Notes under the pieces: generated by a model
Database searches by the model: none
Told to the model about the DNA's origin: nothing
Seen by the model: only the letters and a program-made list of their open reading frames with translations
Shown here: positions 33,766 to 42,213 of the stretch, piece by piece
How the letters are laid out: every line of letters begins with the position of its first letter
How positions within the stretch are numbered: position 1 is the first letter of the stretch
Made by a program: the position numbers and the translations under genes
NCBI RefSeq assembly: GCF_020906515.1
Contig: NC_085850.1
Span: forward strand, 124,001-188,000
Direction: 5' to 3'
DNA: 64,000 bases
Source of the DNA: Vanrija pseudolonga
Taxonomy: Eukaryota; Basidiomycota; Tremellomycetes; Trichosporonales; Trichosporonaceae

Positions 33766-36700
33766 CTAGTTGGCGACGTAGCTGGGAGAGCGGTCCCAGC
33801 GGCTGCCGACTAGGCGCCAGTGCTCGCGAGAGTGGGCGGGCTGGGGTGTCAGCGGCTCGTTCTTGAGTACATCAGCCGACTCACAACTTTGCGACTTGTG
33901 TGCGTTTCCAGGGACTCCCAGACCCAAGCGCCAGTCCAGACGAGAGTGCCCTTGGGGTACGTCTTGTGAGGCTCCCAGTGGACGGGGCCGACATAAGTCT
34001 TGCGAGCGGGAACGGGGGTGGGGGCGGGGGCGGGGGCGGAGGTGGGGGCAGAGGCGACAGAGACGGGGGCAGGAGTACCGGCGACAAGGTGCCATAGGAC
34101 TCCCTCGGATGGCTGTGGCGTGATGTTAGCCATCACAAGCTCCAGCGCCGCGCCGCTCCACTCCACTCACAGGAAGAACACCGATGTGCTTGAACAGAGC
34201 GATCCAGACGCCGTCGACATGCTTGACAACCGCTCCGGGCTCGTAGGTAGCAGCGCGAGCCCAAGGAACAGAAGCGCTAGTGTCGATCGGCGTCGAGGTC
34301 GTGGTGGAAGGCCCCGCCGACTGTGCGGGGACGAGGTGTTGCTGGCCGCTTTCCTTGTCCCACAGGACGCCCTGCGAGGGCTACCCGATGAATATTCGTT
34401 ATAGGCGAGGGCCACATTAGCCGGCCAAGACCCACCTCAAGGACAGAAGTGTGCGCAAAGACACACTTCCAAGCGGCACCCGAGTGCGAGACGACGTCGC
34501 CGACGGCGAAGTGAACGTTGCGGGACCAGGTACGAATGTCGGAGGACACGGGCTCGTCGAGGATCTGGGCAATCGAAGGGGCCGGGACAGCGGGCGTTGG
34601 CGCCTTGACAGTCTCCCAGAATTGGTCGCTTGATGGCTGGACATGTCAGCTGATGTGATGCAAGGGGACGGTCAGCTCACTGCAGTCTTGTTGGTTGGCG
34701 AGCGGATACACTTCCAAGCAACACCCTGGTACCACACAATGTCACCGACGTCGTACTTGGTGTACGGCTTCCAGTCCCCCTTGTTGCCGTCGGAAACACC
34801 ACTCTTGGGGCGAACCTTGGGCAGAGGCGTAGGATCCACCTCAGACGCGGGCCTTGAAGCGACGCCAAAATCCTTCACCTTTACTACGGGGTTCTTCTTG
34901 GGCTTGTCGGTCTTGGCAACGTCAATGGCGACCTTGTCCACAACGACCTTCTCGCCGGTCGACAGGCTGTCGACAACAGCAACCTCGGGAGGCCAGTGGG
35001 CCGAAGGCGACTTCTCGCCGACAAGCTCCCACAGGCCAGAGACAGCACCCTGGTGGGGAAGCTGTGCGAGTTAGCTGATGCACGCCCGAACCGGACAGCT
35101 CGACTCACAACAGCCGAAGTCGAGACGTGGTCCTGGGCGACGCGCCAGTGGCGGTCGGCGTGGAAGACAACCTGACCGACGCGGTACTGCACACCGTTCC
35201 AGTTCCAGTTGGTGATCTCGGGCTCGGGCACCTTGATCTTGGGCACAGGTGAGACGGCGACACTGGGGGCGGGGGCGGCAGAGACAGCAGGCTTCAGGAC
35301 CGGAGCGGGGACAGTGGCCTGGACCAGAACCTCGTCGGCACGGGGCTTGAACTCGGACCACAGACCGTTCTGCACACCCTGGGCAGGCGACTTTGCCAAT
35401 GAGCGCCAGTCCATGACGGTGCCGGGTGGGACGCTCACATATTCGCCGGACACGTGGTCCTTCTCGGCGCGCCAGAGACCGCTGCCGTGCGAGACGACCT
35501 GGCCAGCGGTGTACTTGACTCCGTAGGTCCAAGCAGTAGGGACAACCTGCTTCTTGGATGGCGCGGAGGGAGCCTTGGGAGCCTGAGCAGCGACCTTGGG
35601 AACACCCTCGGGAACAGACTGAGGCTTCCACTCCTTGGCAATGTCGGTGTGCTTGATCCAGAGGCCAGTGCTGACACCCTCCTTGGGAGCCTGAGGAATC
35701 AGTATAGGTTATGGAGAGCTGGTGGGGAACCTACAGCAACGCAACGCCACGGGGTCTCGCCAATCCAAGGGACAGCTCCCTCCTCGTAGAGGTGGCCGTA
35801 CTCCCATGGCACGCGGTTGAGACGGGTGTAAAGGGCCGAGACCACGGGTGTGGACTTGGGCGCCTCAACCTTGGGGGCAGGGGCAGCCGCAACGGGAGCA
35901 GTAGCAGGGGCAGAAGCGACAACGGCAGGAGCGACCTTAGGAGCCGGAGGGATGACAAGGCCGTCGAGCTCGTGGTCCTCGACCTTGACCCAGAGGTCCT
36001 TCACCCAAGGGGTCTGTTGTCAGATCGCGCCACCGGTCGGTCAGCTCACCTGCACAGCCGTGCTGATGTGGCCCTTGATGCTACGCCAGTTCTTGCCAGC
36101 GAACCAGACGACACTGCCGGTCGAGTAGGGAACACCCTTCTCCCAGTCGGGAGTCGTGCGGGGAGCAGCGGGGCTCGCCGCGAGAGGGGCAGGAGGCGAG
36201 AGGTCGGGGACCTTGTCCCAGATCTTCGAGTCCCATGGCAGCTGCGAGATGTCAGCACCCTTGTGGCAATTGCGAAGTGGCGGACTGACCCGGTCGCCGC
36301 TGACGTGCTCAAGCTTGCACTTGAACGCCCGGCCAGCCCACCACACGACATCTCCAACACGGAAGAGCGTGTTGAAGCGCCAGTTGACAACAGACTCGGG
36401 ACGGATGCCCGTGTTGACAACGACAGGGATGGGAGTAACAGACACGGGACTGACCTTCTTGACGCGCGGGGGGTTGGTGCGGCTCGTCCAGAGGTCGTCC
36501 TCGGTAGGCTGTGGCGGGTCAGCTGGGCAAGCAGAGGCGAAGGCAGCTGGCTCACCGGCTTGGCAGACTTGTGGTCGCGGAGAGCCTCCCACTCCTCGCC
36601 GGCGGAGAGAGCAACATCGCCAGACTTGTACTCCTTGTCCTTGACCCAGTCGGGAACGACCTTGACCTTCTCCCACAGGTTGTGGTACGTCAGAGCCTGC

Positions 36701-39700
36701 AGCGTCAGCACCAAAGTCAAGCGCATCACTCTGCTCTGCGGACCGTGGAGAACAAGAAGGCACTAGGCCGCACCTCGACCTTGCTACTCCTGTGGCCGAT
36801 CTTGGCACGATACGCCGACACTCCATGCAGCACCACCGCACCGGCGTTGTAGAACGTGTCGGTCTTCCACCGAGTCACGCCCGTGTCTCCGACAATGGGA
36901 AGAACCGGTGCGGGTGGAGCTGGAAGCACGGCTGGGGCACTAACCTCCTTGTCCTTGGACACAGCGGGAGCCACTGCGGGGGTAGCAGCAGCAACAGGGG
37001 CAGCGGCAGCCGGTTTGACCTCCTTCTTCTCCTCCACAACAACCTTCTCCTGCACCGCATTAGCAGGCTTGGTCGCACGAATCTGGTGGTCGGCCTCGAC
37101 GAGGGCGCTGACCTTGTCCTCAAGACGCTTGAGGAAGATGCGGTAGATGTCCTTGACGCGACTGACTGTTACGATGGCCGACGGGGTGCCGAGCACAAGG
37201 TCGTTGAAGCCAATGGCGATGGTGGCGCGGGTCCACAGGTCCTCAATGGGCTGGGCATCGAACTGGGAGATAGTGTCAGCCGCGGTAGCTATCACGGTGG
37301 GAGACTCATAAGCTACTCACGAGCTTGTATCCGCCGTTGGCAATGACAAACGAGTAGAGCGCGTAAAGGCTGATCTTCTTGTTGACGACAAAGGCGGGCT
37401 GGAGGTTCTTGGTGCCGTGGGCCTCGTGGAGCCTGTCGAGGAAGAACTGCTCCGAAACAGTGGTAGGGTCGACGGCCTTGGGCGCCTCAACCTTGGGCTC
37501 CACCTTCTTCTCAGCCTTGGCCTTGGCCTCGGCCTCCTTCTTCTCCTTGCGCTCGGCAGCGAGGGCATCGCGGATCACCTGGCCAGTGGGCTGGAGAGTG
37601 CGCGGCTTCTTGGCCGGAGCCCTCTCCGGCTTGGGCGCCGCAGCGACGGGCTTGGGGGCGGGAGCGGCCTCGGGCTTGACGGTAACCTCGACCTTGGGCT
37701 GCTCGATCTTGCCGCTTTTCTTGACCCAGTAAGCCTCCTCCAGACGACCGAGGTACGTCTGGTAGAGGTTGCGGATCTGGTTAACGAGAGCGAGCGCGCC
37801 GAGGTGGTCGGGAGTCAGGCCGCGGAAGCCGACGAACGCCGCGGCAACGGGCCACAGCTTGTCGAAGTCCTTGTCAAGAGCACCCGAGCCACCATTGGCA
37901 AGCACAAAGGTGAAGAGCGAGTAGAGGTTGACCTGGCGGCCGTTGACGATCGGGTAGGCAACGGCACGGTTGTGAACAGCCTCGAGGCGCACACGGAACT
38001 CGGCCTCGCTAATGTCGATCTTGATGTCGTCGTCAGCTGAGGGTGCAGGAGTGGGGGCGGGGGCAGGGGCAGCAGCGGGAGCCTGAAGGACTGGAGCAGT
38101 CACAGGGGCAAACGAGGCTGTGACTGGGGCTCCCTTGACAACAGGCACGGCGGCCTTCTCCTCCGGCTTCTTCTCCTCCCAAAACTCCTTGACATCGGCC
38201 TTGAGGTCGTCGATGCTACGACCAGTGAAAGACGGAGCGAACTGCTTCTCCACGGCGGGGGCAGCGAGGACCTCGGGCTCAAACTTGACACGGGGCTCAG
38301 CGACGACCTCAGACTTGATGGCCTTGTCCACGGGAGGAGCTGGCTCCGAGGCAATCACAGCGACAACCTCGGGCTCAATCACCTCGGTAGGCTTCACGAC
38401 CTCGAGCGGCTTCTCCACCTCCTTCGCCTTCTCAACCACCTTCTCGACCTTCTTGGGCTCCGCCTTCACCTCGACCGGCTTCTCGCTGACAACAGGCTTG
38501 GGACCCACCTTGATCTTGGCACTCTGCTTGACCTTCTCACCAACCTTGACGGCACGCGCCTTGGCGACGTAAAGCTCCTCGTAGCGTCCGAGGTACTCGT
38601 GGTAGACGGCGCGGATAGCCTTGTAGACGGCGTGAGAGCCGAGGGTAGCGGGAATGAGGCCAGTGAAGCCGACGAACGAGGCAGCAACAGCCCAAAGCTT
38701 GTCGATGGGCTGGGCATCGGCCTGAATGTCAGCTTGTCGACAACATGGTAAGCTTACCTCCCTGGAGCCGCCGATAGCCTGGACACAGCTGAACAGGGCA
38801 TACATGCTGACCTGGCGACCGTTGACAATCGGGTACTGCAGGTGGGGGTTGAAGTGGAGCCTGCGGAGCTCGGTGACAAAGTCGATCTCGCTGGGGAGCT
38901 GAGCGAGGGGCGAGTCGGTCGGCGAGGCAAGGGGCGAGGTGACCGACGACGGGGCCGCGGGGGCGGTGACGACGGGGGCAAGGCCAGCAGCGACGGGGAA
39001 CGAGTGAGCCGAGGGAGTGCGGGTGTGACCGGCACGCTTGGGGCGACCGGCGTGCATGGGCACAGGGGTAGTCGGGGCAGGCTTGGGGTCGGGGAGAACC
39101 TTGACCTCGACGGGGACGCCGCCGACCTTGACGACCTTTGTCTCGAGCTTGGCGTCCTTCTCGGCCTTGTCGGCCTTGTCCTTCTCGAACCACTCGTTGA
39201 CAATGTTCTTGAGCTCGCCAATGGCGGGGAAGCTGCCGTGGCTAGGCGCAAGGGCGGGAGCAGCGGCGGCGGCAGCAGCAGCAGGAGCGGGGAGGAGGCG
39301 CTTCAGGTCGATCTTGGGGCTGGGGTTGCGCTCAATCTGGCGGACAGAGGGAATGTCCTCGAAGCTGACCGTCTTCTTGATCTTGGGCGAGGCAGGCGAA
39401 GGGGGAGTGGCAGCAAGCTTGGGCGAGACGGCCTTGGCGACGGTAGGCTTGGGCTTGTCAATAACGATGATGGTCGCGGGGCGGTTGGTAGGGGCCTTGG
39501 TCCAGACGAGGTCCTCGGTGGGCTGGACATTAGTCGACCTCGCATGAGGCATTCAGATAGCTCACCTCGTGGGCAGCAGTGTGGGCGAGGAGCGCCTGGT
39601 AGGCAACACCGTTGAACGACACAATGTCGCCAACATAGTAGGTGCTGTATTTGGCCCAGGGGGCAGCAGCAATGGCAAGGTAAGCAGGGGTGAACAGCGG

Positions 39701-42213
39701 GTTCCAGAGGTGGGTGTAGCGGAGCGACTGGTCGGGTGTGAGCAGCGGCTGTCAACTTCCTGACATACCTCGATGTTGGTGCCCGAGTGCGTGATCTTGG
39801 CAGCGTAGACCTTCTTGCCGTCCCAGGCGAGCTCGCCGACGTTGTAACGGTAGCCAGCCTTCCAAGGAGCCGACGAGTCACCCTTGGTCTTGGTGACATC
39901 AGGGCCAGCGTATCCGAGGATGAACTTATTGGCGACCTTGGGAGCAGCCTTGGGAGCAGCGGCCTGGACCTTGGGGGTGGGCACGCAGACCTGGTTGATA
40001 ACGTAGGGGAGGGTGTACGGCTTGCCGAGAGCGGCCCAGAGGTGGGTGAAGCCAAGGCTCTGGTGTGTGTCAGTTGAAGCAATCAGCATCCGGTGCACAA
40101 CTGACCTCCTCGAGAGTGCTGCGGTGCGTGACCTTGGCATAGAACTTGTCCTTGCCGTGGAGAACGGTGGTACCGGCCTCGTAGAGGGTGTTGGCAGCCC
40201 AGGGAAGGATCGGGGCGTCAGGACGGGGGAGGTACCACACCTCGATGCCGGCGAGGTACTTGATGTACACCTCACGGATGCGGGGAGGGACAAGGGGGTC
40301 GACGCCGAGGCCGTAGCCGACGAAGTTGGTCACAGTGGTCCAGGTAGCTGAGATAGGCTCGGCGTCGAGCTGATTGTGTCAGCTGGGCCGGTTTTATCCA
40401 ACTGAACTCACAACACGGTAACCACCGTACGACACGACGGCAGCGAGGAGCTCGTAGAGGTTGACAGTCTTGTTGGCGACAACGGGGTACTGGAAGGCCT
40501 GGCCGTGGATGGTGCGGAGCTCGCGGAGGAACTGCTCCTGGCTGACAAGGTTGGCGAGGACGGGTCCAGCAGCCTTGGTGATGGCAACCTTAGCCTCCTC
40601 CTTCTTGGCAACGGGCTTGGCGGCGACGGGCTTGGCCTCCTCCTTGACCACGGGCTTGACAGCGGCGGGGGCGGGGGTGGCCTTGGGAGCAGCGACGTGG
40701 GGGTGAGGGCAAGAGCAAGCAGTCTTAGCAGGAGTAGCCCCGGGCACCTCCTTGAGGGTGTGAGCGTGCGACCAATCTTGTTCGTCTCTTTCAAGAATCT
40801 TACGGCGACGGATTCGGACTTGGGCGCGGAGGTGGCGGCGGGAGCGGCGGGGGCCTTGGCCTTGGCTGCCTCGACCTCGGAAAGGGTCGGGAGGTAGCCG
40901 TACGGGTGAGCAGGGACATCGACCTCGGGGGCGGGGGCAGCAGCGGCGGCAGGAGCAGTCTTGGGGGCGGCGGCCTCGACCTTGGGAGCGGCGACAACCT
41001 TGGGAGCAGGGGCAGGAACCTCGGCCTTGGGAGCAGGGGTGACGGGACGGTAGACAAGCTTGGTCACGGCGTCGGTGTAAGCCTTCTTGGGGAAGAAGGT
41101 GATCGGGGCCGGCTTGGTAACGGGGGCAGGGGTGGCCACGGGGGTGACCGCGGGGGTAGAGGCAGGGGTGGGGGCAGGAGCGGCCTCCTTCTTGACCTCG
41201 GCAACTGGCTTGACCTTGGCCTCAACGACGGCAGGCTTCTCAGTCACCTTGACCTCGACCTTGGACTCGGGCTTGGTCTCGGCAACCTTGACCTCGACCT
41301 TGGTCTCAGTCTCGACCGGCTTGGCCTCGACCTTGACCTCCTTGTCAGCAGCGACGACATCGTCCTTGGCGACGACGGCGTTGAGCTTCTCCTCAGCCTT
41401 GGTGGCAGCCACGGCGTTGGTGCTGGCGGCGACGGCAACAGTGTCGACGACAGCGGCGGCCGGGGTGGCCTGTGCGGGCTGAAGAATGCTCTTCAGCGAT
41501 CCAGTGCTGGTCTTGTGGTGCGCATGGCCGTGGTGGCCGTGGGCATTGCCGGCGTGCTTCTTGGGGGCAGACTTGTGCTTGTCCTTGTGGTTGTCCTTGG
41601 GGCCGTGCGTCGAGATCTGGTCATGGTGGTGCGATCAGCCACGGGGGACGGGGGGCACTACGGGAGGCGGTGGCCGCCACAGTCAGCCACCTACCTTCTT
41701 GGGGAAGCCGGCCGACGCAGGGGTCGCGGGCGGAGTGTCGGCGAACAGGGCGCTGCGGTGGATCGAGGTAGTCGGGGATCCTGGGGTGGGGGTGACGTTG
41801 CCGCTCGAGCTGAGGGGCGACGAGGGGCGGGACGAGGCGACCGAGGCGGCCGAGCTGGTGGGCGGCGGCGCACGGAAGCCGACCTTCTCCCACAGGTCGG
41901 GGCGGACCGGGGGCTGCGAGTTCTTGGTGCTCGCGTGCTCGGTGGTGCAGCGCCACGCGAGGCCGTTGTACCAGCACACGACGCCGACGTCAAAGTGGAG
42001 CGAGCGGCCCCAGTGGACCTTGCCGGTGATGGCGTTGGGCGTGGGCGGGGCCGAGCGGAGCGAGAAAACCGAGCTCGCGGGCGAGTCGGGTGCCGACGAC
42101 GCGGCGTGCACGCTTGCGTACGAGGCCGTACGCGAGAGGGGCGGCGTGCGGACACTGCCCGTAGGCACCTTGGGCTTGGGGCGGGATCCCTTATGCTTGG
42201 GTCCGGGTCCCAT
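33766..42213 (-). CDS. Giant multidomain protein: ~15 CBM5/12-like modules and 4 ARID-like domains
   Basis: Nineteen minus-strand exons separated by eighteen introns (36-78 bases) read as one frame of about 2,500 residues. The start M-G-P-G-P-K-H-K-G is basic with no signal peptide. Order: one CBM5/12-like module; an Ala/Pro/Lys/Val linker; ARID-like domain 1; three modules; a linker; ARID-like domains 2, 3 and 4 separated by Lys/Glu-rich linkers; then eleven modules to the C-terminus. Each module has W...Y..G..V...G..W......H.S and, past an intron, P....LW, as in chitin-binding type 3 domains. Each ARID-like domain shows L..H......P..N....LY.L...V...GG and then LW..VA..GF. The mix of a carbohydrate-binding fold with a DNA-binding-type fold is unusual, and function and location are unknown. 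Individual splice sites could shift by a few bases. Confidence 0.82.
33775..36885 (-). repeat. Array of eleven CBM5/12-like modules
   Basis: The C-terminal part of the giant gene repeats a module of about 280 bases eleven times. Nearly every copy is split by an intron at the same place, between the H.S segment and P....LW. Examples are V-G-D-V-V-W-W-A-G-R-A-F-K and V-G-D-I-V-W-Y-Q-G-V-A-W-K. Copies are diverged at DNA level, so the array is old. Four more copies lie at about 39.50-39.66, 39.69-39.88, 40.04-40.21 and 41.86-42.03 kb. Confidence 0.75.
37110..40550 (-). repeat. Four ARID-like domains within the giant gene
   Basis: Domains at about 40.25-40.55, 38.57-38.90, 37.73-38.02 and 37.11-37.45 kb. 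Shared pattern: F...L...H, then Y-P-I-V-N-G-R-Q-V (or close), L-Y-.-L, A-N-G-G, and after a usual intron a D...LW segment with G-F and a Y...L...E end. The length (about 100 residues) and order of conserved positions match ARID/BRIGHT domains. Three of the four are cut by an intron just after the G-G motif; domain 3 is not. Three CBM-like modules lie between domains 1 and 2. Confidence 0.65.

Follow-up and report, generated by a model that had tools for sequence, protein, structure and literature searches.

A Vanrija pseudolonga gene that combines repeated CBM5/12-type modules with four ARID domains

The window analysed here comprises 64,000 nucleotides of contig C2 of Vanrija pseudolonga (C2:124001-188000), and the genome searched along with it comprises 24.87 Mb on 9 contigs. 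On the minus strand of the window, a gene coding for a protein with both CBM5/12-type modules and ARID domains extends from position 42213 to 33766 (positions given without a contig are those of the window). Its presence was confirmed by a splice model consisting of 20 exons and 19 introns of 36 to 78 nt, all of phase 0, from which a protein of 2500 amino acids with a single, terminal stop is obtained, in agreement with the about 2,500 residues originally predicted for 33766-42213. A protein search retrieved the public record of the same gene, NCBI Vanrija pseudolonga LOC62_02G001837, which describes an uncharacterised protein of 2544 amino acids with precomputed Pfam assignments to CBM_5_12 and ARID; its UniRef name includes 'ARID domain-containing'. 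The additional 44 amino acids of the NCBI model correspond to three introns read through (12 + 16 + 16 aa), seemingly those at 38722-38757 (36 nt), 36242-36289 (48 nt) and 35391-35438 (48 nt), none of which contains an in-frame stop. Because two of them occupy the usual intron place of the CBM modules and the third that of ARID1 and ARID4, splicing of all three is favoured. The 36-nt intron, located in ARID2, also equals in length and position an intron in the ARID of a glutamine-rich protein encoded elsewhere in the genome (see below), while the acceptor at 35391 is weak (ending in AAAG) and splicing there is less certain.

The protein starts with CBM5/12-type module 1 (aa 66-111; 41881..42018, all domains being on the minus strand), which lies within one exon. 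It is followed by ARID1 (aa 511-603; 40232..40552), which is split by a phase-0 intron and has its second half in exon 4 together with CBM module 2 (aa 613-656; 40027..40204), and by modules 3 (aa 710-753; 39695..39867) and 4 (aa 765-806; 39493..39661; 37.9 bits with Pfam CBM_5_12). The next three domains are ARID2 (aa 1005-1102; 38569..38898), which is interrupted by the 36-nt phase-0 intron retained in the NCBI model, the intronless ARID3 (aa 1288-1385; 37720..38013), and ARID4 (aa 1473-1576; 37089..37458), again split by a phase-0 intron and with its second half in exon 9, which it shares with module 5 (aa 1649-1692; 36664..36872). The C-terminal part is made up of module 6 (aa 1697-1738; 36479..36651), module 7 (aa 1770-1812; 36209..36385), module 8 (aa 1833-1876; 35981..36148), the degenerate module 9 (aa 1934-1972; 35649..35809), module 10 (aa 2011-2056; 35349..35534), module 11 (aa 2103-2150; 35020..35210), module 12 (aa 2232-2273; 34607..34776; 31.2 bits), module 13 (aa 2299-2340; 34351..34531; 35.6 bits), module 14 (aa 2369-2410; 34083..34266) and module 15 (aa 2445-2487; 33808..33980).

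This arrangement is that of one genuine gene, as had been proposed. From ARID1 to module 15, each adjacent pair of domains has an exon in common, and the modules that are split between exons require both of them, while module 1 is linked to ARID1 only through introns 1 and 2. The sharing of exons across 18 of the 19 domains makes two mis-joined genes very unlikely, and we discarded such a mis-join on account of the split modules and of the exons shared by ARID1 with module 2 and by ARID4 with module 5. An artefact of gene modelling was likewise rejected, given the independent NCBI model of the same gene.

The original prediction of about 15 chitin-binding type 3-like modules was borne out by 15 modules of the CBM5/12 type. 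All three pieces in which the protein was searched scored above the curated cut-off of Pfam PF02839 (CBM5/12; 49.7, 56 and 83.7 bits), and 3 of the 15 modules exceeded it singly in a six-frame search. The fold was modelled for module 1, for which the predicted structure (pLDDT 84.8, 56 residues) matched CBM5/12 structures, with TM values of 0.67/0.80 against 1ed7, the chitin-binding domain of chitinase A1; with a model of only 56 residues, Foldseek returned no E-value of 0.001 or below. Module 13 matched the same PDB entry with an E-value of 0.0019. The likeness to the Bacillus chitinase A1 domain comprises the fold and the core residues, whereas the Vanrija protein differs from the chitinase by having no enzyme part, 15 modules, no visible signal peptide and no equivalent of Trp687 in any module. 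A paper cited in PMC8449059 names, in its title, Gln679 and Trp687 as chitin-binding residues of the ChiA1 domain. In our sequence alignment, the Trp687 column was placed by means of the residue spacing of the 1ed7 fragment. At this column, 14 of the 15 modules showed a gap and none a tryptophan, which was also missing from six modules of a relative. Aromatic residues occur some residues past this column in modules 2 (F), 3 (Y), 5 (Y), 7 (W) and 8 (W), which makes an alternative contact possible; in PMC8449059, the aromatic residues used by CBM5 domains are described as a Y-W or W-W pair plus a third one. As far as the aligned residues tell, the CBM5/12 fold is kept and the known chitin contact of ChiA1 is not. 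Because the equivalent of Trp687 is missing, a polysaccharide ligand is not to be assumed; carbohydrate binding by these modules may be lost, and we have withheld the label 'chitin-binding protein', given that the contact tryptophan is missing in 15 of 15 modules.

The cut-off of Pfam PF01388 (ARID), 24.1 bits, was exceeded by all four of the predicted ARID-like domains, with two of the domains scored in the form of exon halves, and two of the three pieces of the spliced protein reached 69.8 and 59.8 bits. The predicted model of ARID3 matched solved ARID structures and showed the ARID fold. An exon-wise search of the genome yielded two other Pfam ARIDs, one in a protein assigned by eye to the KDM5 or Rum1 type because of its PHD-like and jumonji-like sequence, and the other in the glutamine-rich protein at C1:1398411. 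The ARID of the latter shares 42% identity with ARID1, 54% (53/98) with ARID2, 51% with ARID3 and 38% with ARID4, and with scores of 177-261 it aligned better than any other ARID to ARIDs 1, 2 and 4, ranking second for ARID3. The KDM5-type gene was rejected as the source of the domains because its ARID reached pairwise scores of only 28-71 with them. A phase-0 intron is located directly past a GGxxx motif in ARIDs 1, 2 and 4, and the glutamine-rich gene contains a 36-nt phase-0 intron at the identical boundary (GGYRF/FDTQPLDKLW, with the slash marking the intron); the boundaries aligned to GGYRF/FDTQ are GGYRV/LDAE, GGSRE/ADAQ and GGYKL/FDAQ, and the KDM5-type ARID has an open frame across this place. 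The chance that one intron falls on a given boundary and phase is about 1/285 (95 codons x 3). Taken together with the degree of identity, this makes a common descent of these ARIDs and that of the glutamine-rich gene, intron included, well supported.

The glutamine-rich gene probably codes for a subunit of SWI/SNF, as suggested by its ARID, the glutamine-rich context and its best PDB match, 23fj_R, which is titled 'ARID domain-containing protein'; its C-terminal part showed no clear relative in the PDB, with one weak match (E 0.72). PMC6856107 lists three ARID genes in Cryptococcus neoformans, RUM1alpha, AVC1 and BRF1, and reports a proposal that Brf1 is the SWI/SNF ARID subunit of Cryptococcus, the counterpart of Swi1/Sol1. 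The glutamine-rich gene may be the counterpart of BRF1 in our view, or alternatively that of AVC1. Since a third single-ARID gene was not found in the exon-wise Pfam search of the genome, which thus has two other ARIDs compared to three in C. neoformans, the fusion gene is possibly a remodelled AVC1 counterpart instead of a fresh copy. From this one genome, we infer a transfer into the fusion gene, a multiplication of the ARIDs within it and the loss of the intron from ARID3. In comparison to SWI/SNF ARID subunits of the Brf1 type, the domains are alike in ARID type, in identity (up to 54% with the glutamine-rich protein) and in intron position; the difference is that the glutamine-rich gene contains one ARID, whereas four are placed among CBM modules in the fusion protein.

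The net charges of ARIDs 1 to 4 are -1, -1, +1 and 0, compared to -1 for the ARID of the glutamine-rich protein and +6 for that of the KDM5-type protein. Being near neutral like that of the glutamine-rich protein, the four domains are not expected to bind DNA strongly, and may do so weakly or no longer at all. The entire protein has a pI of 9.4 and its low-complexity, lysine-rich A/P/V/K linkers one of 9.7, unlike five ORFs of relatives (pI 4.05-6.38), and this basic charge slightly favours contact with nucleic acid. Together with the common descent of the ARIDs with a SWI/SNF-type ARID gene and an NLS-like motif (KKPR at aa 1422), it speaks for a nuclear, chromatin-linked protein, in which the ARIDs would keep SWI/SNF docking or DNA contacts and the CBM folds would bind proteins. 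However, the NLS-like motif is short and the only one, the ARIDs are near neutral, and the related gene is itself only probably a SWI/SNF subunit, and we therefore regard a nuclear function as possible while leaning against it.

The CBM part of the protein belongs to a clustered multi-CBM5/12 family without visible signal peptides. With one module of a relative as the query, 20 places in the genome were found at E ≤ 10, of which 19 lie within the 158-280 kb section of C2 (4 of them inside the fusion gene) and the remaining one at C2:2865100. The multi-CBM loci at C2:200.7-213 kb and 269-280 kb resemble the fusion gene in their repeated CBM5/12 modules, their low-complexity stretches and the lack of a clear leader (four N-termini), and differ from it by the lower pI of five ORFs and by the ARID, which an exon-wise search did not find in them. 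The giant CBM5/12 locus at C2:200748-213486 contains a V/A/E/P-rich ORF of 2471 aa (pI of about 4) flanked on either side by CBM modules, has a DM9-like sequence at its far end (15.9 bits) and shows no clear signal peptide. A cluster of multi-CBM5/12 ORFs is located at C2:269000-279400, where several modules are intronless and whole in single frames. At C2:2864389-2865923, a DM9-like domain (24.6 bits) occurs in the same locus as a lone CBM5/12-like module (19.1 bits); each scored below its Pfam cut-off, and the locus possibly represents the ancestral layout of the family; the DM9 cut-off of 26.2 bits was reached by neither of the two DM9-like sequences.

One use for such a protein would be to act in the cytosol as an elastic tether or plug for septa or wounds, meeting wall polymer when the cell is cut. 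It would be comparable in build, though in build only, to Leashin (LAH), the Woronin-body tether of ascomycetes, an intracellular protein of giant size whose repetitive linkers are of low complexity, the PELS-rich ones being likened to titin PEVK in PMC2690989. The length and low-complexity linkers of the fusion protein fit this proposal, as does the V/A/E/P-rich ORF next to CBM modules in the cluster relative, but no member of the family has been placed at septa and the SWI1-type ARIDs would stay unexplained, which leaves the proposal unlikely.

In accordance with the original prediction, no leader was visible in the fusion protein. Signal peptides and membrane spans were judged from hydropathy alone, with a peak value over 19 residues of 1.66 located inside ARID2. 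A hidden signal-peptide exon was not found either, as the 700 bases upstream contained no open two-exon start (considering consensus sites and introns of about 36-120 nt only), and the N-termini of four relatives, taken from open frames by eye, showed no clear leader in hydropathy. These results weigh against non-classical export to the wall or cell surface, where the CBM modules would hold chitin or chitosan and the ARIDs would serve as adhesion or spacer folds, and so do the few N-glycosylation sequons (3) and cysteines (10) in 2500 residues and the missing chitin-contact tryptophan. Fungal walls are rich in chitin, and two of the other CBM loci carry a DM9-like domain (under the Pfam cut-off), which count for a place in the wall; export by another route is possible, although nothing in the protein beyond the CBM5/12 fold favours it, and we consider a wall protein distinctly unlikely.

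Searches of 5.8 billion proteins returned the protein itself as the sole match among the best 8000 candidates of one search and the 67 candidates of another, and no relative outside V. pseudolonga was found among these. A third search gave nothing at E ≤ 1 among its best 7999 candidates, including no CBM relative from the same genome. As both the scored candidates and their length were limited, orthologues were possibly missed. NCBIfam profiles gave no match. Among the papers listed by the literature searches, none dealt, by title, with the protein, with a combination of ARID and CBM5/12, or with a clustered, leaderless CBM5/12 family in a basidiomycete yeast; 'CBM' and 'chitin-binding' are absent from the main texts of PMC12820176 and PMC11708051, and 'ARID' is absent from that of PMC12820176. 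This is consistent with the original statement that no described protein has both folds in repeated form, and the novelty lies in a new combination of known domains within a leaderless multi-CBM family. A decaying chimeric gene without important function, for which the lack of a relative among the best candidates and the degenerate module 9 could be quoted, is highly improbable, as 2500 codons are open over 20 exons and the ARIDs, although diverged to 33-54% identity, share 11 invariant columns with the genome's other two.

The reading that we prefer, with slightly more confidence than doubt, is that of one genuine fusion gene coding for a presumed flexible, multivalent intracellular scaffold with both types of modules. 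A multi-CBM gene would have taken up ARID exons of the type found in the glutamine-rich gene, and both kinds of modules would then have multiplied; each kind mostly shares an intron place of its own in phase 0 (14 of 15 CBM modules, the exception being the intronless module 1, and 3 of 4 ARIDs). In the resulting protein, the CBM-fold modules would hold one ligand through numerous weak contacts, the near-neutral SWI1-type ARIDs would bind a protein or nucleic-acid partner, and the lysine-rich A/P/V/K linkers would space the modules along a lengthy, flexible chain. Under this reading, the ligand may be a glycan or something else, and the protein may reside in either the nucleus or the cytosol. 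The original interpretation is partly supported overall, namely in the two domain families, their repetition, the single gene and the lack of a visible signal peptide. Its candidate functions (an intracellular polysaccharide scaffold, a wall protein that leaves the cell by some other path, or an ARID-like fold binding something other than DNA) have their weights shifted by the common descent of the ARIDs with a SWI/SNF-type gene and by the missing ChiA1 tryptophan.

The steps by which the protein was built can partly be read within one genome, from the single-ARID gene, the common intron and the repeated modules. The outcome is a new architecture, in which a multiplied ARID stands beside modules unconnected with chromatin, and the leaderless CBM5/12 cluster raises the question of the role of a chitin-binding-type fold inside the cells of a basidiomycete yeast. 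Going further, the ARID of a chromatin remodeller might have been captured exon by exon as a repeatable module of an intracellular glycan-type array. If true, the protein would couple a glycan-type ligand to SWI/SNF or to partners of that complex, or serve as a multivalent decoy that takes up contacts normally made by the SWI/SNF ARID, a far-reaching idea that we hold to be improbable. As judged by eye, the neighbours of the gene at about 31.6-33.0 kb (plus strand) and 43.3-43.9 kb (minus strand) of the window resemble alcohol dehydrogenase and O6-methylguanine-DNA methyltransferase.
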